From NCBI GenBank assembly GCA_026398255.1, contig JAPLTG010000031.1, positions 1 to 64,000 of the forward strand: a stretch of DNA of 64,000 nucleotides. The letters run 5' to 3'. Of the stretch, positions 9,034-59,402 are shown piece by piece (the stretch's first letter is position 1; the number at the start of each line of letters is the position of its first letter). The notes under the pieces are model-generated. The model did no database searches, was not told where the DNA came from, and worked only from the letters and a program-made list of their open reading frames with translations. Source of the stretch: Verrucomicrobiota bacterium (GTDB lineage Bacteria > Verrucomicrobiota > Verrucomicrobiia > Chthoniobacterales > Terrimicrobiaceae). Position numbers and translations under genes: made by a program.

Positions 9034-9125
9034 CTGGGTTGGAATAAATCAAAGCCCACCGCCTGAACAGATTTTCCTCGTGGGGAGAACGCCTGAGGCG
9101 GGCTCATCGCCGCCGTCTGCGGGAC

Positions 9126-9190
9126 AGAGGACTGCCGTTGCTGCAACGGATTTTCTCCGTGTCCCCGTGCCTCCGTGAGAGTCCCTGTTT
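9126..9190. repeat. 65-bp intergenic direct repeat, copy 1
   Basis: Begins agaggactgcc and ends tgcctccgtgagagtccctgttt. It matches the second copy at 9355-9419 over its whole length with only a few differences in two short internal patches. Inside is a short inverted repeat, ACGGA-ttttc-TCCGT (9146-9160). The gap between cutA and glgB (9034-9419) contains no plausible gene; these two copies are its main structure. Confidence 0.75.
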
Positions 9191-9354
9191 TACAAAGCGG
9201 CCGAGACGAGCGATCCACCCTCTTTGCGGATTTGGGTCTTTGCGTGAGGAATTGGTTTGAGGGGAAACGGCGCCTTCGCGCCTGAAGCTTGGGTCGTTTG
9301 CGGCAAAACAACCCTACCTTGGTTTTTTCGATTCGCGGTTCGATGCCACGCGCC

Positions 9355-9419
9355 AGAGGACTGCCTTTGCCACAACGGATTTTCTCCGTGGCTCTGTGCC
9401 TCCGTGAGAGTCCCTGTTT
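9355..9419. repeat. 65-bp intergenic direct repeat, copy 2
   Basis: Second copy of the repeat at 9126-9190, in the same orientation, 229 bases apart. It abuts the stop codon of cutA at 9420. It contains the same ACGGA-ttttc-TCCGT inverted repeat (9375-9389). Similar 'ctccgtg' intergenic repeats occur dispersed in many Verrucomicrobiota genomes; that link is from general knowledge and not tested here. Confidence 0.75.
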
Positions 9420-9740
9420 CTACTCGCCGGCGGCGCAGCTAGAGACGATCCACTCCGCGTAGGCGTGGCAGACGGCGGCGGGGTCGAAGGCCACGATCTC
9501 GGGAACCTCGTAGGGGTGAATCTCTCGAAGTTCTTTCTCGAAGGAGCTGAAATTCGCCTTCGGGATTTTGAAAATCACGACGACTTCCTTGGCCTCCTCG
9601 ATCGAGCCTTTCCAATTATAGATCGAGCGGGCGCCAGGGATAATCGTGCCGCAGGCGGCGACTTTTTCGGCGACGAGTTGATGGACGATGTCGGCGGCGG
9701 TGGCTTCGTCCGGGAGTGAGGTGAGAACGAATCGTGTCAT
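9420..9740 (-). CDS. cutA: CutA1 divalent-cation-associated trimeric protein
   Basis: A 106-residue protein starting at the ATG at 9740, chosen because MTRFVLTSLPDEATAADIVHQLVAEKVAAC is the standard CutA1 opening. Upstream in-frame sequence is a shadow of mnmA. Family motifs: AACGTIIPGARSIYNWKG, VVVIFKIPKANF and HPYEVPEIVAFD. CutA1 forms very stable trimers related in fold to PII; it was linked to divalent cation tolerance but its biochemical role is unresolved. The start codon overlaps the mnmA stop (ATGA), so it is translationally coupled as the second gene. Confidence 0.93.
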   Translation of the reverse strand: MTRFVLTSLPDEATAADIVHQLVAEKVAACGTIIPGARSIYNWKGSIEEAKEVVVIFKIPKANFSSFEKELREIHPYEVPEIVAFDPAAVCHAYAEWIVSSCAAGE

Positions 9741-48554: not shown

Positions 48555-50120
48555 ATGAGCGATCCCGTGCTTCCCACCCCGGAGCAGTTGCAGCGCCGCT
48601 TGCAGGAACTCCTGCGGACGACCTTTGCCGCGCCGGGCAATTCCCCTGAAAACCCGCCGACGCCCACCGAGCCAGCCGACAAGGTCCCTCCGGCGATTCA
48701 GGATTTTCATCTTACCCCCCGCGAGGTGAAGGCTCACCTCGACCGCTTTGTCATTCGACAAGACGAGGCCAAGAAAGTCCTCGGGATCGCTGTGTGCGAC
48801 CACTACAACAACGCCCGGGTGATGGCCTCCCGCGAGGCAGGCGCCCCGCCGCTGGAATACGCCAAACAGAATGTCCTCATCGCGGGCCCAACGGGGGTCG
48901 GTAAAACCTATCTCGTCAAACATGTCGCCGATTTGATCGGGGTGCCGTTCGTCAAGGCCGACGCGACGAAATTCAGCGAGACCGGCTATGTCGGCGGCGA
49001 TGTCGATGATCTCGTGCGGGAGTTGGTGCAAAAAGCCGACGGCAATCTGGCCCTCGCGCAATACGGGATTATTTACATCGACGAGATCGATAAAATCGCG
49101 ACCTCCCGCGAAGTCACGGGCCGAGATGTGAGCGGGCGGGGCGTGCAGACGACTTTGCTCAAGCTCATGGAGGAAACGGATGTCGCGCTTCGTGGCGGCA
49201 ACGACCTCCAATCCCAAGTCCAAGCCGCCCTCGAATTTCAAAAACGCGGCAAGGTCAACCGCGAATCGATCAATACCCGCCACATCCTTTTCATCGTCTC
49301 CGGCGCGTTCGACAAGTTGACCGATGTCGTTTCCCGCCGGTTGAAAAAAACAGGGATCGGTTTCGGTGCCGACCCGGCGGCGGCGACAACTTTGCCCGCC
49401 GAGCTTCTGCGGCTCGCCGGCACGAGCGATTTTGTGGATTACGGCCTCGAACCCGAATTTATCGGACGACTCCCAGTGCGCGTCGTTTGTGAAAGCCTCG
49501 CCGAGGGCGACCTTTTCGAAATCCTCAAGCAATCCGAGGGTAGCCTCATTCGCCAATACGAGCGGGCTTTCGCTGCTTACGGGATCGAGGCGGTTTTTTC
49601 TGATGAGGCTCTCCGCCACATCGCCTCGCTGGCCGTTCGAGAGAACACCGGCGCCAGGGGATTGATGACGACCTGCGAGGGGTTGCTGCGCGAATTCAAA
49701 TACCGTCTCCCCGGAAGTCCGGTGCGAACTTTGGAGGTCACGCCCGCCGTTTTAGAAAATCCCGATGCCGCCATCGAGCGCCTGCTCCAAACTGGCGCGG
49801 AGGATGCCCGGCAGGCCCAGAGCCGCGTCATTACTCAATTCGCCGAGCGTTTCGGGGAGCAACATGGCTACCGCTTCCGCTTTTCGCCGGAGGCGGTGGA
49901 GGCGATTTTAGCGAAGTCCCTGGAGAAAAACATTTCTGCTCGCGACTTGTGCGAGGGGCTTTTCAAAGATTATCAATTCGGGCTGGGCCTGATCCATCGC
50001 AACAGCGGTCAAACCGATTTCGAAATTCCCGCCGAGGCGGTCGAGTCGCCGGACCGCGTGTTGAGCCAGTGGGTCGTGGCCTCCCACCGCACGCAAGACG
50101 AACACGATGAGAATTCTTAA
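48555..50120 (+). CDS. ClpX-like AAA+ ATPase without the N-terminal zinc domain
   Basis: A 521-residue AAA+ protein. It starts at ATG 48555 with a disordered Pro-rich stretch in place of the zinc-binding domain of ClpX. Walker A GPTGVGKT (111-118), pore loop GYVG (144-147), Walker B IIYIDEID (172-179), and a sensor segment GLEPEFIGRLPV (about 297-308) are intact. The ClpP-docking tripeptide IGF is present in KKTGIGFGAD (residues 268-270). The C-terminus is extended about 100 residues (about 420-521) with no recognised domain. It probably unfolds specific substrates for ClpP, with altered substrate choice. It overlaps the cyclase-like gene by 14 bases. Confidence 0.82.
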   Translation: MSDPVLPTPEQLQRRLQELLRTTFAAPGNSPENPPTPTEPADKVPPAIQDFHLTPREVKAHLDRFVIRQDEAKKVLGIAVCDHYNNARVMASREAGAPPLEYAKQNVLIAGPTGVGKTYLVKHVADLIGVPFVKADATKFSETGYVGGDVDDLVRELVQKADGNLALAQYGIIYIDEIDKIATSREVTGRDVSGRGVQTTLLKLMEETDVALRGGNDLQSQVQAALEFQKRGKVNRESINTRHILFIVSGAFDKLTDVVSRRLKKTGIGFGADPAAATTLPAELLRLAGTSDFVDYGLEPEFIGRLPVRVVCESLAEGDLFEILKQSEGSLIRQYERAFAAYGIEAVFSDEALRHIASLAVRENTGARGLMTTCEGLLREFKYRLPGSPVRTLEVTPAVLENPDAAIERLLQTGAEDARQAQSRVITQFAERFGEQHGYRFRFSPEAVEAILAKSLEKNISARDLCEGLFKDYQFGLGLIHRNSGQTDFEIPAEAVESPDRVLSQWVVASHRTQDEHDENS

Positions 50121-51372
50121 AGCCGCCATCCTCCTAGGCGCCATTTCCGCAACCCTGGCCATGCTCCTTCTGGCATCGGGGTTCCCCGCCGTCATCGATG
50201 AGGGGTTACTCAAATCACTCCGGATCCCGATGGATGGCCGTCCACTCTGGGGATCGCCGATTTTCGTCTCACTGGTTCTGGCCTTCGGCATTGCTTGGAC
50301 GACCCTCGACATCACGCGGAACTCCCTGCGGATTTTCATCGTCTTGGCCACGGCGATCCTTCTTTGCACCTGGTCGGGCGTGGTTTCGATCTACGGGCAG
50401 TTTTTCTCGCCCGTCCTTCCGGTATTCACTGTCCTCTGTAGCGCCACCCTCGGCCTTCTTTGGGTTCGCACCCGGAGCGGTTCCAGAAAACAAAATCTCG
50501 AGCGCCTCTTTGGTCCCAGAATGTCCCGCGCAGGCTTCCGCGAGATTTTAAATTCCCGCTTCGACGCCTCATTTCCCGGTCGCAAATTGCAAGCGAGCGT
50601 GCTGGTGGTTTCCGTTCACAACCACGCCGAGTTGATGGAACTCCTTTCGCCCGCCGACTACACGGCGATCACGAATTTTTACCTCCAGACCGCCTCCGAT
50701 TACCTCGTGGAATCCGGCGGCTACCTGGATGAATGCAATGGCGAGTGCATTCGAGTCGTCTTCGGTGCGCCCCAGCCCGACGAGCGTCACGCCACCCGCG
50801 CCTGCCGCGCCGCGATCGATCTCGCCGCCCGCATCGATGAACTCAACAAGGAATGCGACGCCCGCTGGCAGCGGCGTCTCGATGTCCGCATGGGCCTCGA
50901 CTCAGGGGAAATTGTCGCCGGTCTTTTTGGCGGAAATCGACTCGCGAACTACAGCGTCGCCGGCCAAGCGGTGGATTTCGCGCGCCGCCTCTGCTCCGCA
51001 AGTTCCTCCTATGGCGCCCGGATTTTGATTGGCCCCGATGCCTACAGCCCGGCGGCTGAGTCGCTCGAAGTCCGTCCGATCGAAATCCTCAAAGTCAGCG
51101 CCCGCCGTCGCCGTGTGGAAATCTACGAAATCCTCACGGCCAAACACGGCCTCTCGCCGGAACGCGAACGCAGTCGCGATCATTTCTGGACCGGCGTTCT
51201 CCACTACCGCGAAAAGCAGTGGGAAAAAGCCGTCGATGAATTCACGAAGGCCCGCATCACCGGCTTGCCCGACCCCGCACTGGATTTCTACCTCCGCCGG
51301 ATCGAGCAATCCCGCCGCCTCGCTGAAGATTCGCACAAGGAATCCATGCCTGCCTTTCAGCACAACGCGTGA
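50107..51372 (+). CDS. Degenerate class III cyclase-like membrane protein
   Basis: A 421-residue protein with a membrane part of four predicted helices (about residues 5-25, 52-68, 75-98, 103-120) and a cytoplasmic class III cyclase-like domain (about 160-340). The fold is recognised by LVESGGYLDECNGECIRVVFGAP and YSVAGQAVDFARRL. Both metal-binding aspartates are replaced (S169 where VFADI carries Asp, and E213 in the GD position), and the adenine-side residue is altered (NYS for DYT), so cyclase activity is doubtful. A C-terminal segment (about 350-400) is TPR-like. It sits between the ClpX-like and heptose adenylyltransferase genes, overlapping both. Confidence 0.75.
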   Translation: MRILKAAILLGAISATLAMLLLASGFPAVIDEGLLKSLRIPMDGRPLWGSPIFVSLVLAFGIAWTTLDITRNSLRIFIVLATAILLCTWSGVVSIYGQFFSPVLPVFTVLCSATLGLLWVRTRSGSRKQNLERLFGPRMSRAGFREILNSRFDASFPGRKLQASVLVVSVHNHAELMELLSPADYTAITNFYLQTASDYLVESGGYLDECNGECIRVVFGAPQPDERHATRACRAAIDLAARIDELNKECDARWQRRLDVRMGLDSGEIVAGLFGGNRLANYSVAGQAVDFARRLCSASSSYGARILIGPDAYSPAAESLEVRPIEILKVSARRRRVEIYEILTAKHGLSPERERSRDHFWTGVLHYREKQWEKAVDEFTKARITGLPDPALDFYLRRIEQSRRLAEDSHKESMPAFQHNA

Positions 51373-51875
51373 ACCCCGCCCAAACCCTCGCCCAATTCCT
51401 CCCGCGCATTCTCACCCCTTCGGAAATGCGCGCCGAGCGGGACCGTCTCCATGCCGAGGGCCGAACCCTTGTTTTCACCAACGGCTGCTTCGACATCCTC
51501 CACCGAGGCCACGCCGACTACCTCGCCTTCGCCCGCTCCCAAGGAGATGCCCTCGTTGTCGGACTCAACAGCGACGCCTCCGTCCGCCGCGCCAAAGGCC
51601 CAACCCGCCCCGTCAATCCCGAGCAAGACCGAGCCTATGTCCTCGGCTCCCTCCGCGCGGTGGATTTCGTGGTGATTTTTGAGGAGGACGAACCCCGCGA
51701 CCTTATCTCCCAAATCCTCCCCGATGTCCTGGTGAAGGGAAAAGACTGGGCGCACTATGTGAGTGGCCGCGACATCGTCGAGGCCAACGGCGGCCGCGTC
51801 GTCCTCGCTGAAATGGTCGAGGGCCGCTCCACCACCGCCACAATCGAGCGGATGCGGTCGTCGCAGCCTATATGA
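51369..51875 (+). CDS. rfaE2: D-glycero-beta-D-manno-heptose 1-phosphate adenylyltransferase
   Basis: A 168-residue cytidylyltransferase-fold enzyme. The nucleotide site is TNGCFDILHRGHADYL (HxGH), followed by VVGLNSDASVRRAKGPTRPV, PEQDRAYVLGSL and VLVKGKDWAHY. This is the separate C-terminal half of HldE: it makes ADP-heptose, the precursor of LPS inner core and also of TIFA-type signals. The kinase half (HldA/RfaE1) is not in the window. The start is GTG at 51369, overlapping the cyclase-like stop (GTGA). A chimeric copy of parts of this gene lies at 58431-58652. Confidence 0.9.
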   Translation: MNPAQTLAQFLPRILTPSEMRAERDRLHAEGRTLVFTNGCFDILHRGHADYLAFARSQGDALVVGLNSDASVRRAKGPTRPVNPEQDRAYVLGSLRAVDFVVIFEEDEPRDLISQILPDVLVKGKDWAHYVSGRDIVEANGGRVVLAEMVEGRSTTATIERMRSSQPI

Positions 51876-52010
51876 GACAGGGATTTTTTTCGTCTTCTAC
51901 GAAAAACTGGGGAACTGGGGTTAAGGAAATGCTTTTATCTTGAGAGGACGGATATTGCTTCCACATGCCAGATCGAAGGGCCGTAGCCGAAACCGTCGGC
52001 GGATGGGTGA

Positions 52011-53507
52011 TTATTTGCGCGTGCCGGGGTTCAGTTTTTGTTCGGTGAAGCGGGCGAGGCGCACGAAGGGCAGGCCGATGAGGAGGTAGAAGGTGGCGAC
52101 GAGAAGCCCCGCGCCGAAGTAGTCGAAGGTCTGCGTGGCGATCTGTTTGTAGGCTCCGGTGAGGTCGACCAGCGTGACCATCGAAACGAGGGAGGAATCT
52201 TTGAGGAGCGAGATGAAGTCGTTTGTCACAGGCGGCAGGACGAGGCGGAAGGATTGGGGGATGACCACATGGAAGAGGCCTTGGCGCTGGGTCATGCCGA
52301 GGGCGCGGGCGGCTTCCATCTGGCCTTTGGGGATGGCCAGCAGACCGGCTCGGTAATTTTCGGCTTCGTAGGCGGCGTAGTTGAGAGCAAGGCCGAGAAC
52401 GCCGGCCACAAAGGGCTCGAGCTTGATGCCGATATTCGGCAGTCCGTAAAAAAGGATCAGGAGCTGGATGAGGAGAGGCGTGCCGCGAATGAGTTCGATG
52501 TAAAGGGTGGCGATCCAGCGCAAGGGGAACGGCCCGTAGACCCGCATGATGGCTAGTGCGAAGCCGAGGAGAACGGCGCCGACCATTCCGAGAATGCTGA
52601 CTTCTATTGTGAGAAGCGAGGCTTGGAGCAGGAGCGGCCAGAAGCGCGCGTAGCCGATGATGCGGTTCAGCAGGGAGGGCTGCTCGGCGGTGGCGGCGAC
52701 AAAGGCCCGATACTCGGTGTCGGGCAGTGAGGGATCCTCGGGCTGGCCGAAGGTATCGGCGACCATGGCGGTCCACAGGCCCCAGCGCGAAAGGATGTCG
52801 CGCATCTCGCCGCTGGCGAGGACCCGGCCGAGGGCGGCATTCATTTCCTCGAGGAGGGCGGGGTTCGTCCTCGATAGGGCGATACCGTAGCTGATCTGGC
52901 CGAACGGCGGGCCGGTGAATTGCAGGTTCGGGTTGGCGAAGGCGTAGTATTTTGCGATCGGATAGTCGAGGAGCACACCGAACAGGCGGCCGTTCACGAC
53001 ATCGGCGTAGGCATTGACCTCCTCGTCGTAGGTTTTGACGATGACGCCCGGGATTTTCGAGAGCATGACGAACGAGGCGGTCTGGCTGAGCGTGCCGACC
53101 TGCTTGCCGGCGAGTTGGTCGAGGCTGGCCACACGAGGTGTGCCGCGCTTCACGACGAACTGCTCGTAGGTGACATAGTAGGGATTGGTGAAGCGGACTT
53201 CCTGGGACTTCTCGGGCGTGATCTCGATGCCGCAGATGACGCAATCGTAGAGACCGCGTGAGAGGCCCGGAATGAGGCCGTCCCAGTCATTCGGCACAAA
53301 AACGGGTTCGCGCCCCATCTCGCGGGCGATGGCTTGGATGATCTCCAGCTCAAAGCCGGTGAGTTTGTTGCCGGGACCGTAGAAGGCATACGGCGCATTG
53401 CTGTCGGTCGCCGCCGCCCAGCGCAGGGGCGGTTGGTCTGCGGCAAGCGCGAAAGGCGCGAACAGAATGGCCAGGGCGCAGAGCAAAAGCAGGGTGGTTT
53501 TTTTCAT
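52011..53507 (-). CDS. Amino-acid ABC transporter, substrate-binding protein fused to permease
   Basis: A 498-residue fusion. Signal peptide residues 1-22 (LLLLCALAILFAPFALA). Residues 25-265 are a family-3 substrate-binding domain (AATDSNAPYAFYGPG, GFELEIIQAIAREMG, GIEITPEKSQEVRFTNPYY). Residues 285-490 are a His/Glu/Gln-type inner membrane permease (LLQASLLTIEVSILGMVGA, ELIRGTPLLIQLLILFYGLP with the EAA-like loop). SBP-permease fusions are known in Gram-positives (GlnPQ) and a few others. The stop of the ATPase gene overlaps the start (ATGA), giving a complete importer. Confidence 0.92.
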   Translation of the reverse strand: MKKTTLLLLCALAILFAPFALAADQPPLRWAAATDSNAPYAFYGPGNKLTGFELEIIQAIAREMGREPVFVPNDWDGLIPGLSRGLYDCVICGIEITPEKSQEVRFTNPYYVTYEQFVVKRGTPRVASLDQLAGKQVGTLSQTASFVMLSKIPGVIVKTYDEEVNAYADVVNGRLFGVLLDYPIAKYYAFANPNLQFTGPPFGQISYGIALSRTNPALLEEMNAALGRVLASGEMRDILSRWGLWTAMVADTFGQPEDPSLPDTEYRAFVAATAEQPSLLNRIIGYARFWPLLLQASLLTIEVSILGMVGAVLLGFALAIMRVYGPFPLRWIATLYIELIRGTPLLIQLLILFYGLPNIGIKLEPFVAGVLGLALNYAAYEAENYRAGLLAIPKGQMEAARALGMTQRQGLFHVVIPQSFRLVLPPVTNDFISLLKDSSLVSMVTLVDLTGAYKQIATQTFDYFGAGLLVATFYLLIGLPFVRLARFTEQKLNPGTRK

Positions 53508-54274
53508 CAGTGGAACCTCCTGAGGAAGCGGCGGGTGCGTTCGTCCTTCGGGTTGTCGAAGATTTCGTCCTCGTCGGAAATCTCCACGATATGGCCGCCC
53601 TCCATGTAGATGATGTAGTCGCTGGCATCGCGCGCGAACCGCATCTCGTGGGTGACGACGATCTGCGTCATGCCCTCGGCATCGAGTGCTTTCATGACAT
53701 GCAGGACCTCATCGACCAGCTCGGGGTCGAGCGCGCTGGTCGGCTCGTCGTAGAGCATGACTTTTGGCTGCATGGCGAGAGCACGTGCAATGGCGGCGCG
53801 TTGTTGCTGGCCGCCGGAGAGGTTGGCGGGGTAGCGGTCGGCGTGAGCGCCGAGGCCGACTTTCTCGAGAAGCGTGCGGCCGGTTTTTTCGGCATCCTCG
53901 TGGGGAACGCCCCGGACGATGATCGGAGCCATCATGGTGTTCTCCAAAAGCGTGCGGTGGGGGAAAAGATTGAATTGCTGGAACACCATGCCGACGCGTT
54001 GGCGGAGGGCGTGGGCGGTCTTCTCGAAATCGGCATCCAGCTTTGCGCCGGGCTTTCTGGAAATGGTCGCCCCGGCCGCGGTGATGACGCCCGAATCCAA
54101 GGTCTCAAGCCCGTTGATGCATCGGAGCATCGTGCTTTTGCCGCATCCCGAGGGGCCGATGACCGAGACCAGATCGCCCTCCTCGATCGCGAAGCTCACG
54201 CCTTTGAGAATCGGCGTGTCATCGAAGCTTTTGTGCAAATCCTGAATCGAGACGAGTGGCGTGAAGGAATCCAT
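53507..54274 (-). CDS. Amino-acid ABC transporter ATP-binding protein (GlnQ-like)
   Basis: A 255-residue ATPase. Walker A GPSGCGKSTMLRCIN, Q-loop VFQQFNLFPHRT, signature LSGGQQQRAAIARAL and Walker B VMLYDEPTSALDPE are present; the switch region VTHEMRFARD follows. These give the polar amino-acid uptake subfamily. It is the first gene of the operon, followed by the SBP-permease fusion. Upstream (54285-54302) is a short palindrome that may be an operator. Confidence 0.95.
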   Translation of the reverse strand: MDSFTPLVSIQDLHKSFDDTPILKGVSFAIEEGDLVSVIGPSGCGKSTMLRCINGLETLDSGVITAAGATISRKPGAKLDADFEKTAHALRQRVGMVFQQFNLFPHRTLLENTMMAPIIVRGVPHEDAEKTGRTLLEKVGLGAHADRYPANLSGGQQQRAAIARALAMQPKVMLYDEPTSALDPELVDEVLHVMKALDAEGMTQIVVTHEMRFARDASDYIIYMEGGHIVEISDEDEIFDNPKDERTRRFLRRFH

Positions 54275-54284
54275 CTGTGAGTGG

Positions 54285-54302
54285 CTGTCCTAGGATGGAC
54301 AG
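54285..54302. promoter_or_regulatory. Short palindrome upstream of the amino-acid transporter operon
   Basis: CTGTCC-taggat-GGACAG, perfect 6-bp arms with a 6-base centre, lying 11 bases upstream of the ATPase start and between two divergent transporter genes. It could be an operator for either the ABC operon or the PiT gene. No PHO-box repeat was found here. Confidence 0.3.
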
Positions 54303-54411
54303 TGCTTGAAAACAAGGGCCGAAATGTGACCGATTTGTGCTGGGATACGCAGGGCGGGGATCGACGATTTTGTTACATCGAGTGGGTTGCCGGAACATCG
54401 CCACATAATGC

Positions 54412-55923
54412 ATGAAAGCTTACCTCATGACTCTGGCATCCACTTTCACCGATCCCACATTTCTAACCTATTTCCTCCTCGCTGTGGCGGTGGGGCTCGC
54501 GCTCGGTTTTGAGTTTGTGAACGGCTTCCACGATACGGCGAATGCGGTGGCGACCGTGATCTACACGAACACTCTCAAGCCCACGCCGGCTGTCGTTTGG
54601 TCGGGAATCTGGAATTTGATCGGGGTGCTTACCTCGTCCGGCGCGGTGGCGTTCGGTATTGTCGCGTTGTTGCCGGTCGAGCTGGTCTTGAATGTCGGCT
54701 CGGCAGCAGGGTTTGCGATGGTGTTTTCGCTGTTGGTCTCGGCGATCGTGTGGAATCTCGGCACCTGGTGGCTCGGGTTGCCGGCGTCGAGTTCGCACAC
54801 GCTCATCGGTTCGATCATCGGCGTGGGGGTGGCTAACGCGCTCATGGGGCCGACCCATGCGGTCACGGAAGGCGTGAACTGGGCGAAGGCACAGGAGGTC
54901 GGGATCGCCCTGCTGGTCTCGCCGCTGGTGGGTTTTTGCGCGGCCGCACTGCTTCTGATCGTCGCCCGCCTCGCTCTCAAGAAGCCCGAGCTTTTCAAGG
55001 CGCCGGAAGGCGGAAAGCCGCCACCAACATGGATTCGAGGGATTTTGATGCTCACCTGCACCGGCGTGAGTTTCGCGCACGGATCGAATGATGGCCAAAA
55101 AGGCATGGGCCTGATCGTGCTGATCCTTGTAGGAATCCTCCCCGGCACCTATGCGCTCAACATGGCGGCGAGCCGCGAGTCGGTCACAGGCCTTGCGAAG
55201 GAGACGGCCGAGATGTCCTCGGTGTTCGAGGCACAGGGCGGCGGGAAAATCCTGACTGGAAAGGACGCCAACGACACGCTCGCCACCTTTCTGAAGCCTC
55301 AAGAAAAACCTTCACCGGCCGTGTTCTCGGCGTTGGCCGGGATCTGCGATGACATTTCCAACAGGCTGCGCAGCGCGGAGGGCTTTCAAAGCCTCCCGGC
55401 CGCCGAGCGCGGGGATTTGCGCACCGACCTTTATCTTGTGTCGAAAACGCTCACGAAACTCGACAAGGCCGGAAAGCTCGACATCACGCCCGGCGTGCGG
55501 GAGCAGCAGCGCTCGCTCGCCCGCCACGCCGATTTGCTCACCAATCACATCCCCGACTGGGTAAAAATCTCCGTCGCCCTCGCCCTCGGGCTGGGAACGA
55601 TGATCGGCTACAAACGGATCGTCCGCACGGTCGGCGAGAAGATCGGCAAGAGCCACCTCACTTACGCGCAGGGCGCTTCGGCGGAACTTGTCGCGATGGG
55701 CACGATCATGATCGGCGACCATTTCGGCCTGCCCGTCAGCACCACGCATGTGCTCTCCTCGGGTGTCGCAGGAACGATGGCCGCAAACGGCTCGGGGGTC
55801 CAAGGAGACACGGTGCGGAACATCATTCTCGCCTGGGTGCTGACGCTTCCCGTGTGCATTTTCCTCGGCGCGCTGCTTTTCGCCGGCGCGCTGAATGTGA
55901 TCGCCCTCATCGGCATCGGGTAA
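54412..55923 (+). CDS. pit: PiT-family inorganic phosphate transporter
   Basis: A 503-residue polytopic protein with the duplicated family signature: GFEFVNGFHDTANAVATVIY near the N-terminus and DHFGLPVSTTHVLSSGVAG near the C-terminus, which carry the ion- and phosphate-binding sites. A large soluble insert (about residues 255-385) separates the two halves. It imports metal-phosphate or phosphate with protons or sodium. It lies nine bases before ppk2 on the same strand, so phosphate uptake and polyphosphate metabolism appear linked. Confidence 0.93.
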   Translation: MKAYLMTLASTFTDPTFLTYFLLAVAVGLALGFEFVNGFHDTANAVATVIYTNTLKPTPAVVWSGIWNLIGVLTSSGAVAFGIVALLPVELVLNVGSAAGFAMVFSLLVSAIVWNLGTWWLGLPASSSHTLIGSIIGVGVANALMGPTHAVTEGVNWAKAQEVGIALLVSPLVGFCAAALLLIVARLALKKPELFKAPEGGKPPPTWIRGILMLTCTGVSFAHGSNDGQKGMGLIVLILVGILPGTYALNMAASRESVTGLAKETAEMSSVFEAQGGGKILTGKDANDTLATFLKPQEKPSPAVFSALAGICDDISNRLRSAEGFQSLPAAERGDLRTDLYLVSKTLTKLDKAGKLDITPGVREQQRSLARHADLLTNHIPDWVKISVALALGLGTMIGYKRIVRTVGEKIGKSHLTYAQGASAELVAMGTIMIGDHFGLPVSTTHVLSSGVAGTMAANGSGVQGDTVRNIILAWVLTLPVCIFLGALLFAGALNVIALIGIG

Positions 55924-55932
55924 GATTTTAAA

Positions 55933-56826
55933 ATGAACACGATCGCACATTCCGAGATGGACGCGAAGATTCGCGCCGAGATTTTGGATAACCTGGACGA
56001 AGAACTGGAGCTTGAGATGGAAGAGACCAGCGGCCCGGGAGCTACTCCCGATGCGGGTTTTCGGGCGGTGTATTTCAAAGAGCTGTTCCGCATGCAGGCC
56101 GAGTTGGTGAAGTTGCAGGACTGGGTGGTGGCCAGCGGGAAGAAGATCGTGGTGTTGTTCGAGGGACGCGACGCGGCGGGCAAGGGCGGCGTGATCAAAC
56201 GAATCACCCAACGCCTGAATCCCCGGGTGTGCCGCGTGGCGGCGTTGCCCGCGCCGAACAACCGCGAGAAGACGCAGTGGTATTTCCAGCGTTATGTGGA
56301 GCACCTACCGGCGGCGGGGGAGATCGTTCTATTCGACCGCAGTTGGTATAATCGCGCCGGGGTTGAGCATGTGATGGGCTTTTGCTCGCCCGAGGAATAT
56401 GAGGCATTTTTTCGGGATGTGCCCGAGTTCGAGAAATTGATCATCCGCTCCGGAATCCAGCTCGTGAAATACTGGTTCTCGATTACCGACGCCGAGCAGG
56501 CCTTCCGCTTCAATGCGCGGATTGCGGACCCTTTGAAGCAATGGAAGCTGAGCCCGATGGATCTCGAGTCGAGATCGCGCTGGGAGGACTACACGCAGGC
56601 CAAAGAGGTGATGCTTTCGCGGACGAGCACCCCCGAGGCGCCATGGTGGGTGGTGAAGGCGGTGGACAAAAAGGGGGCGCGGTTGAATTGCATTCGCCAT
56701 CTGCTCTCGCTCGTGCCCTACGAAACTGTGCCGCACGATCCGGTGCTCCTCCCCGAGCGGGTTCACCATCCCGACTACCACCGCCACGATGTCCCGCCAG
56801 ACATGCTGGTGCCGGAATTTTATTGA
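55933..56826 (+). CDS. ppk2: Polyphosphate kinase 2
   Basis: A 297-residue P-loop kinase. Walker A FEGRDAAGKGGVIKRI, Walker B DRSWYNRAGVEHVMGF and the lid segment with YTQAKEVMLSRTSTPEAPW are typical of class I PPK2. It transfers phosphate between polyphosphate and ADP or GDP, usually making NTP from polyphosphate. The short acidic N-terminal region precedes the domain. Nine bases after pit; the porin gene follows 31 bases later. No ppk1 in the window. Confidence 0.93.
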   Translation: MNTIAHSEMDAKIRAEILDNLDEELELEMEETSGPGATPDAGFRAVYFKELFRMQAELVKLQDWVVASGKKIVVLFEGRDAAGKGGVIKRITQRLNPRVCRVAALPAPNNREKTQWYFQRYVEHLPAAGEIVLFDRSWYNRAGVEHVMGFCSPEEYEAFFRDVPEFEKLIIRSGIQLVKYWFSITDAEQAFRFNARIADPLKQWKLSPMDLESRSRWEDYTQAKEVMLSRTSTPEAPWWVVKAVDKKGARLNCIRHLLSLVPYETVPHDPVLLPERVHHPDYHRHDVPPDMLVPEFY

Positions 56827-56857
56827 GAAAAACCCACAAGAAAAAATTTCCTCAAAC

Positions 56858-58330
56858 ATGAACCTGAAGCACACAACCCTCGGGGTTCTTTTCACCTTAG
56901 CGGCCTGGTCGACCCACGCGGCAAACAGTTGGTGGCAATGGCATCCGGTGGTGGACCGCGGGTCCGGAAACTACCTCAGCGGCGCTGTGCTTTCCGGCAC
57001 AGCTGGAACGATTGGCGGGGTTCGCGAGCGGGCGCACGAACGGGATTTAAGCTTGCCGTGGAGCGACTGGTGGAACGGGAAATACATGCTCGGCGGGAGG
57101 GGGAATCCCTTGTTCGACGCGAGGCGGGCGGCGGGCGACCGGGGACTGACTTTCACCGGGTATTACCAAGGGGCTTTTTTCGGAGCGGTGGCGGCGCAGG
57201 GGGGATCGAAGGGATTCTGGGACGAGCAACTGACCTTTGGAGCGGACCTGGATTTCGGGAAGCTTCTCCAGGTCGAGCCGCTCGAGGGCGTGTCGGGCTT
57301 TGTTCTGGCGCGCTACCGTGACTCGTGGCCCGGCTCGAATCCGAACACCGTGGTCGAGGCGCAATCGATGTTCAACCCCTCGAACTGGCAGAGCGGAACC
57401 CAGGCCCGGCTTTTGGCGATGGGCTTGTATTTTGGCTCGGGAACGAGATTGGCGATGAAGGACATGGTGGTGATGCGGCTTGGCTGGCTGCAGCCGCAGC
57501 GGGATTTTGCAGACCAGCCGCTCTCGAAACTTTTCCTGAATAACGCGGTGAACAGCGCCAAGGGCATTGGCGGGAATATTCCGTTTTCCTCGAGTTTTTC
57601 GACCTGGGGCGGTGTCTTGAAGCTTCGGTTGCATGACACCGTGCAGTTCAACAATGGCCTCTACATGTCGTTCCCAAGCCCCACGGCATCGGCAAACCAC
57701 GGCCTGCAGTTCGAGGGAAGCCCCGGCAAAAACGGTTTGTTTTACATGAGCGAGGCGAGCTACATGCCGCTCGTAGGCGAGGCGAAACTGGCCGGCAAAT
57801 ACGCGTTCGGCGGCTACTACTATGGAACACCCGGCGGGCAGACGGTGACTTGGAACGTCAACACGGCACCGGGCCAATACGGGTTTTATTTTCAGGCCGA
57901 CCAGATGCTGTATCGTGAACCCGAGGCGGTCGTGGCAGGGGGCGGAAAGAACTTCAAAGAAGCAGAGCCTGCCAAAGAGCAGCAACTGCGCAAACAGGGG
58001 TTGAGCGCATTCAACTTGCTGACTTTCGCGCCAGGGTATGCGAAGGCGAACAACTTCCCGTTCTATTTTCAGAGCGGCTTGGTCTACACCGGCCTGTTCC
58101 CCTCGCGGGGCGAGGATTTGACGATGGCCTCGATCGGCTACGGTGCCTATCAGGGCGGCGTGGGTTCGGTGGAGAAAAGCTACACGGCGGTGCTCGAAGG
58201 CGGATACCGCTGGCAGCTGAACGGCTGGTCCTACGTGCAGCCGTTTGCGCAATATTTCGTGAGGCCGAATGGAACTTCTCAGGTCCAAAACGCGACGGTG
58301 CTGGGCTTTCTGGCGGGCTTGGTTTTGTAG
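56858..58330 (+). CDS. OprB-type carbohydrate-selective porin
   Basis: A 490-residue outer-membrane protein (ATG at 56858 with signal peptide MNLKHTTLGVLFTLAAWSTHA). After the leader, residues are rich in alternating aromatic/Gly beta-strand patterns, and the protein ends VQNATVLGFLAGLVL, an outer-membrane-type end. The pattern LTFTGYYQGAFFGAVAAQGG and YVQPFAQYFVRPNG fits the OprB family of carbohydrate porins. It is third on the strand after pit and ppk2; a role as nutrient entry pore is inferred. The chimeric fragment follows after one base. Confidence 0.82.
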   Translation: MNLKHTTLGVLFTLAAWSTHAANSWWQWHPVVDRGSGNYLSGAVLSGTAGTIGGVRERAHERDLSLPWSDWWNGKYMLGGRGNPLFDARRAAGDRGLTFTGYYQGAFFGAVAAQGGSKGFWDEQLTFGADLDFGKLLQVEPLEGVSGFVLARYRDSWPGSNPNTVVEAQSMFNPSNWQSGTQARLLAMGLYFGSGTRLAMKDMVVMRLGWLQPQRDFADQPLSKLFLNNAVNSAKGIGGNIPFSSSFSTWGGVLKLRLHDTVQFNNGLYMSFPSPTASANHGLQFEGSPGKNGLFYMSEASYMPLVGEAKLAGKYAFGGYYYGTPGGQTVTWNVNTAPGQYGFYFQADQMLYREPEAVVAGGGKNFKEAEPAKEQQLRKQGLSAFNLLTFAPGYAKANNFPFYFQSGLVYTGLFPSRGEDLTMASIGYGAYQGGVGSVEKSYTAVLEGGYRWQLNGWSYVQPFAQYFVRPNGTSQVQNATVLGFLAGLVL

Positions 58331-58331
58331 G

Positions 58332-58661
58332 CTCAGCTCCTCCGGTTCCTATTACAGAGCCCGGATTTTGATTGGCCCCGATGCCTACAGCTCAGTGGCG
58401 GAGTTACTCGAAGTTCGCCCGATTGAAATTCTCAACAGCGATGCCTCTGTCCGCCGAGCCAAAGGCTCAACCTGACCTGTCAATCCGGAGCAAGACCTCA
58501 TTTCTCAAATCCTCCCCGATGTCCTGGTGAAGGTTAAAGACTGGGCGCATTATTTGAGTGGCCGCGACATCGTCGAAGCCAACGGGGGCCGCGTCGTCCT
58601 CGCCAAAATGGTCGAAGGCCGCTCCACCATCGCCACGATCGAGCGAATGCGGGGCGGGTAG
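58332..58661 (+). pseudogene. Chimeric cyclase/heptose-adenylyltransferase fragment
   Basis: Three blocks match other parts of this window in the same order. 58332-58434 matches 50989-51091 (cyclase-like domain). 58431-58497 matches 51564-51630, and 58494-58652 matches 51699-51857 (both rfaE2). The missing parts are about 475 and 72 bases. Joins fall at shared short words (ctcaa and gacc). The blocks read in one frame: RARILIGPDAYSSVAELLEV, then SDASVRRAKGST, a TGA at 58473-58475, then PVNPEQDLISQILPD and on to a stop at 58659-58661. Many differences are third-position changes. No start codon or signal peptide belongs to it. Most likely a decayed remnant of a partial duplicate. Confidence 0.85.
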
Positions 58662-58664
58662 CCC

Positions 58665-59402
58665 CTACATCCGCCGCTCGAACCAATCCTCCGGGGGGAG
58701 GGGGGGCGGTTGGCGCTCCAAATCCTCTCGGTAGTTGGCGAAGCGGATTTCGTCCTGAGCGCCGTTGAAGACAAAGATTGCGATCAGCATGAGCATGAAG
58801 TTCCCTTGCAGAAATCCCCCCACGCAAAATGCCCCCGCCAAAACCTGCCCGGTCCGACCCGCGATCCGCGTGGCTTTTGTCCAACGAATCTTCATCGCCA
58901 AGAGGGATCGAAAAACTCGTCCGCCATCCATCGGGAAGGCCGGAATCATGTTGAAGACGACCAATCCCAGATTCACCAAAAGCAAATTGTGCAGGATCTC
59001 TCGAGTCTCGCCGGCGGGTCCGCTGAAAAGACCGCCTGTCAGCCACAAGACGGGAGCCAGCACCGCCGCGATGACGACATTCACTGCCGGTCCGGCCACG
59101 GCGATGACGAATTCCTCCTTGGGTTTGTCCGGAACCGCCAGCATCCGCGCCACCCCGCCGATGGGCAGGAGAGTAATGTCTGGCGTTGGCACCCCGTAAT
59201 GCCGGCCCGCGAGAGCGTGGCCGAACTCATGGAGAAGCACGCAGATGAAAAGCAGGAAAATAAACAACACCGCCCGAACGGCTTCAGTGGACCCACCAGC
59301 TTGCCAAGCCACCCATCCAAAATACAGCGGGAGCAACAGGAATGTGATGTGAATCCGCACATCGATCCCCGCGATCCGCGCGATGCGATACGACCATTTC
59401 AT
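58665..59402 (-). CDS. Site-2 protease-like M50 intramembrane metallopeptidase
   Basis: A 245-residue polytopic zinc protease. The zinc motif HEFGH (residues 58-62, VLLHEFGHALAGRHYG) and the third-ligand segment NMIPAFPMDGGRVFR are present, plus six hydrophobic segments. No CBS domain and no PDZ domain, so a minimal SpoIVFB-type form. Such proteases cleave membrane-bound factors in regulated proteolysis. The substrate is not evident from neighbours. It is divergent from serA, with about 100 bases between the starts. Confidence 0.9.
   Translation of the reverse strand: MKWSYRIARIAGIDVRIHITFLLLPLYFGWVAWQAGGSTEAVRAVLFIFLLFICVLLHEFGHALAGRHYGVPTPDITLLPIGGVARMLAVPDKPKEEFVIAVAGPAVNVVIAAVLAPVLWLTGGLFSGPAGETREILHNLLLVNLGLVVFNMIPAFPMDGGRVFRSLLAMKIRWTKATRIAGRTGQVLAGAFCVGGFLQGNFMLMLIAIFVFNGAQDEIRFANYREDLERQPPPLPPEDWFERRM

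Follow-up and report, generated by a model that had tools for sequence, protein, structure and literature searches.

A probable relic of a second cyclase-hldE2 copy beside a 6.5-kb insert in a Verrucomicrobiota genome

The window analysed here (64,000 nucleotides, positions 1 to 64,000 of contig JAPLTG010000031.1) contains a stretch of 330 bases between a porin gene and an M50 peptidase gene, which joins parts of two genes located 7 kb away. Does this stretch represent a new fusion gene, or is it what remains of an old one? We consider it probable, at about 0.85, that positions 58332-58661 once formed the 3' part of a second cyclase-hldE2 copy and are now a relic without function, that is, an ordinary pseudogene and not a new fusion gene. 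A literature search found nothing bearing directly on this locus.

The two parent genes are intact. The product of the first carries an adenylate/guanylate cyclase catalytic domain, and the second encodes an HldE2 protein (RfaE domain II) with the nucleotidyltransferase HxGH motif in the form HRGH at 51501-51512:

50107-51372, plus strand: cyclase-like gene with a Guanylate_cyc domain (Pfam PF00211, E-value 4e-10)
51369-51875, plus strand: hldE2 (rfaE2), D-glycero-beta-D-manno-heptose 1-phosphate adenylyltransferase, TIGR02199 above cut-off

We searched the genome itself (2.6 Mb in 44 contigs) with positions 58232-58761 as the query and recovered, apart from the query, exactly three other places with E-values between 1e-58 and 1e-15. 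A self-BLAST of the window returned the same three. Positions 58332-58652 accordingly consist of three blocks matching the cyclase-hldE2 pair with order and orientation kept, as the first-pass annotation had described. In the following list BLASTN identities are given for the resident copy and for the copy of the sister species G015:

58332-58434, plus strand: block 1, part of the cyclase-like gene, source 50989-51091 (82% resident, 86% G015)
58431-58497, plus strand: block 2, middle of hldE2, source 51564-51630 (88% resident, 87% G015)
58494-58661, plus strand: block 3, 3' part of hldE2, source 51699-51857 (91% resident, 91% G015), with a short new tail ending in TAG at 58659-58661

The fragment starts directly 3' of the porin stop codon (58328-58330), and its terminal TAG lies three bases from the stop codon of the M50 gene on the opposite strand. 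Relative to the source, the block offsets correspond to internal deletions of 476 bp and 72 bp. Blocks 1 and 2 overlap by the microhomology CTCAA, giving 5 bp at the join of the larger deletion, and 4 bp (GACC) are shared at the join of the smaller one. These are the joins proposed before, with the larger deletion estimated then at about 475 bp. Since random deletions in the region reach an equal microhomology at only 2.1% of positions for 476 bp and 3.4% for 72 bp, both internal deletions likely arose by short-homology deletion.

Offsets and translation agree with the earlier reading of a single frame: all three blocks share it, interrupted by one TGA at 58473, and the translation is LSSSGSYYRARILIGPDAYSSVAELLEVRPIEILNSDASVRRAKGST*PVNPEQDLISQILPDVLVKVKDW...MRGG*. 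In the source, the two genes share 4 bases and are read in different frames; the larger deletion puts them into a common frame, which the smaller one preserves. One common frame is expected after two random deletions with a chance of about 1/9. An assembly artefact as the source of the arrangement can be excluded only indirectly: the fragment differs by 9-18% from any other sequence in the genome, the contig around it measures 71 kb, and no long identical repeat is located nearby. Elsewhere in the window a 70-base direct repeat was observed (9125-9193 and 9354-9423, 90% identical, 229 bases apart).

Several properties of the fragment point to loss of function. The region corresponding to 51501-51512 falls inside the first deletion, and the HxGH motif expected of TIGR02199 members is therefore absent. 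Since this motif is missing, the predicted product cannot function as an adenylyltransferase. In addition, valine has taken the place of a conserved glycine (LVKGKDW to LVKVKDW). We looked for an own start codon and found no plausible one; the only in-frame upstream start, at 58269, lies inside the porin gene. The fragment thus combines homology to its parents (82-91% over the three blocks) with disabling lesions, namely the TGA at 58473, the 476-bp deletion that took the HxGH motif, and the lacking start. It also shows relaxed constraint: dN between fragment and resident copy is 0.065 versus 0.009 between the resident copy and G015, on a branch that was constrained for part of its length. Like other bacterial pseudogene relics it is truncated, internally deleted, intergenic, contains a stop codon and evolves faster than the functional copy. 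Unlike them, it has parts of two operon genes joined in one frame, as could happen by chance. Blocks 2 and 3 go back to an HldE2 family gene, but the fragment lacks the catalytic region and so is not a functional member of the family.

The fragment could instead be a selected chimeric short protein or a regulatory RNA. The single frame with only one TGA and the excess of synonymous changes would fit such a role; however, the missing start, the deleted catalytic motif and the stop codon argue against it, as does the lack of conservation, since the fragment was found in none of the other genomes of the genus or family searched. We regard this reading as barely credible. The first-pass annotation had taken the retained frame as a sign of past translation or selection, and this argument is not supported, given the chance of 1/9 and the loss of the motif.

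Past coding constraint is nevertheless detectable. We compared the fragment, the resident copy and the G015 copy over 320 aligned bases. The dS values are 0.39 between fragment and resident copy, 0.31 between fragment and G015, and 0.16 between the resident copy and G015, with a bootstrap 95% interval of 0.06-0.37 for the synonymous excess of the fragment's distance. The dN/dS ratio of fragment versus resident copy is 0.16. Private changes number 31 in the fragment and 10 in each of the other two, half of those in G015 falling in its altered 3' tail. Synonymous changes make up 17 of the 31 fragment-private changes, compared to 10.8 expected when the same mutation types are placed at random (P = 0.008). 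The codon alignment proposed earlier as a check thus yields a coding signal. Replacements account for 14 of 31 changes on the fragment branch versus 32 of 121 between the two functional copies. We infer that the second copy was long under coding constraint and became a relic later.

The same alignment bears on the source of the fragment. We found no clear derived change shared by fragment and resident copy in the 320 aligned bases, and the private changes of the resident copy are all absent from the fragment. The G015 pair matches it about as well as the resident copy or better (86, 87 and 91%). Topology tests on these bases accept all three placements of the fragment (AU 0.39/0.61/0.39). We place the divergence of the second copy near the separation of the window's species and G015, or earlier; it would have begun either as a duplicate or as an allele of a close relative. 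A recent within-species duplication of the resident 51-kb operon would fit the location in the same genome, in the same orientation and only 7 kb apart. Yet no private change of the resident copy recurs in the fragment, which is as close to G015 as to the resident copy, or closer; site patterns and dS led us to reject a recent copy, which we judge quite improbable. The present genes at 51 kb, named as the source in the first-pass annotation, are accordingly unlikely to be its immediate source. The suggestion made there of an old operon duplicate stands in part: the fragment appears to be an old copy shrunk by short-homology deletions, but only the 3' part and not the whole operon is present.

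Comparison with G015 places the putative relic at the edge of an insert. Collinearity of G015 with the window extends (at about 93.5%) to 51847, where hldE2 ends, and resumes (at 94%) at 58665, where the M50 gene ends. The features between and beside these points, with gene assignments from Pfam and NCBIfam, are:

51876-58331: insert relative to G015, 6.5 kb, missing between the collinear flanks
52011-54274, minus strand: fused binding-protein/permease gene and ATPase gene
54412-55923, plus strand: PiT phosphate transporter
55933-56826, plus strand: PPK2
56789-58330, plus strand: OprB-type porin
58665-59402, minus strand: M50 peptidase, right flank where collinearity resumes (96% protein identity to G015)

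The reading frame at 52011-53507 fuses a substrate-binding domain of the amino-acid ABC transporter type to a permease, a fusion that is conserved within the genus and, beyond it, in some families of the same order. Searches of the G015 genome (99% complete) with the permease, PiT, PPK2 and porin genes of this module yielded no orthologues; such genes are present in many other genus members, mostly at separate places. Between hldE2 and M50, G015 carries about 0.94 kb (L045:8123-9062, contig C23) with a mazEF-like pair, of which one reading frame matches MazF models weakly, below cut-offs, and the small neighbouring one resembles a MazE-type antitoxin by position and sequence only. This stretch has relatives at 82% (G007) and 68% (G010) identity and no counterpart that we could find in the window's genome. 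Because G015 is collinear on both sides with a different filling, the fragment would be the second, decaying copy at the border of an insert, and the junction it marks is variable within the genus.

Among the genomes examined, hldE2 adjoins M50 only in the window's genome and G015, and most sublineages of the genus differ in the genes located 3' of hldE2 (loci L127-L135, L137 and L138). Synteny thus appears to break repeatedly at the 3' end of hldE2. In the other genomes of the genus we sought an ancestral linkage of the cyclase-hldE2 pair with M50 or with the module, and in relatives we looked for remains of the insert's left edge and for a circular or donor form of the insert. None was found, nor was a ready-made donor segment seen. 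Plasmid origin was rejected as the fragment with its flanks gave no plasmid match, and foreign base composition of the insert was rejected as its G+C content resembles the flanks and third-position G+C is only slightly higher. G015 carries a degraded OprB-type porin remnant (L046:5628-5936, contig C84), a second porin being lost in that species. It is an orthologue of an intact porin (G000:C42), and we rejected it as a remnant of the insert's porin. In G010 (C5:15544-18565, L161) porin and PiT homologues each occur in two pieces, representing frameshifted pseudogenes or assembly errors.

The order in the window is cyclase-hldE2, module, truncated cyclase-hldE2, M50. Such a direct-repeat arrangement would be expected from single-crossover (Campbell-type) integration or from segmental duplication. 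In the case of integration, a circular molecule bearing the module together with a cyclase-hldE2 end would have entered by a single crossover. The redundant right-hand copy would then have lost its function, because the intact copy at 50.1-51.9 kb supplies it, and would have decayed through short-homology deletions and point mutations rich in C-to-T changes. Both the decay of pseudogenes and integration by a single crossover are invoked here as general background. As in known scars of this type, the insert lies between same-orientation copies of a locus, the right border is at the original neighbour M50, and the outer flanks are collinear with an uninserted relative, G015. In contrast to them, the right copy is truncated and diverged, and neither a circular or duplicated intermediate nor a donor was seen.

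For the origin of the relic two models can be weighed on 320 bases and 15 genomes of the genus. The common ancestor with G015 may have had two cyclase-hldE2 copies around the module. G015 would then have lost the second copy together with the module, possibly when the two copies recombined, while the window's species kept a decaying remnant. This would explain why the fragment is more distant in dS from either species than the two are from each other, and why module genes widespread in the genus were not found in G015. However, neither the module nor the fragment has left a trace in G015, whose hldE2 tail does not resemble the fragment, and the second close copy that the first-pass annotation had proposed to look for next to the porin and M50 genes is absent from the other genus members. 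We hold this model to be tentative, somewhat short of even odds. Alternatively, the fragment may have come, alone or together with the module, from a functional gene of a third close relative and integrated at the homologous hldE2 end. Coding constraint on the fragment's own branch, its large synonymous distance and the direct repeats around a module that the sister lacks are consistent with such an introgression, although no donor was found among 97 relatives, the resident hldE2 has no foreign 3' part (dS of 0.16 to G015 in hldE2) and the module has a G+C content like its flanks. It too is a possibility that we would not put at one half. Under both models the copy would be superfluous beside the intact pair and in the course of being lost. 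A further, rather unlikely proposal is that the remnant marks a cargo swap at a recurrent insertion point behind hldE2, with homologous hldE2 ends as the entry point.

As a probable relic, the fragment would be a clear case of bacterial gene-order change, in which a redundant operon end beside an insert was eroded by short-homology deletions. It also cautions against taking frame-preserving relics for fusion genes. The loci of named records place the genus in the freshwater Spartobacteria/Verrucomicrobia, and the 3' end of hldE2 is indicated as a recurrent breakpoint in it. If a cargo swap did take place, sister species would hold different modules, for nutrient uptake in one and a mazEF-like pair in the other, at one and the same junction.
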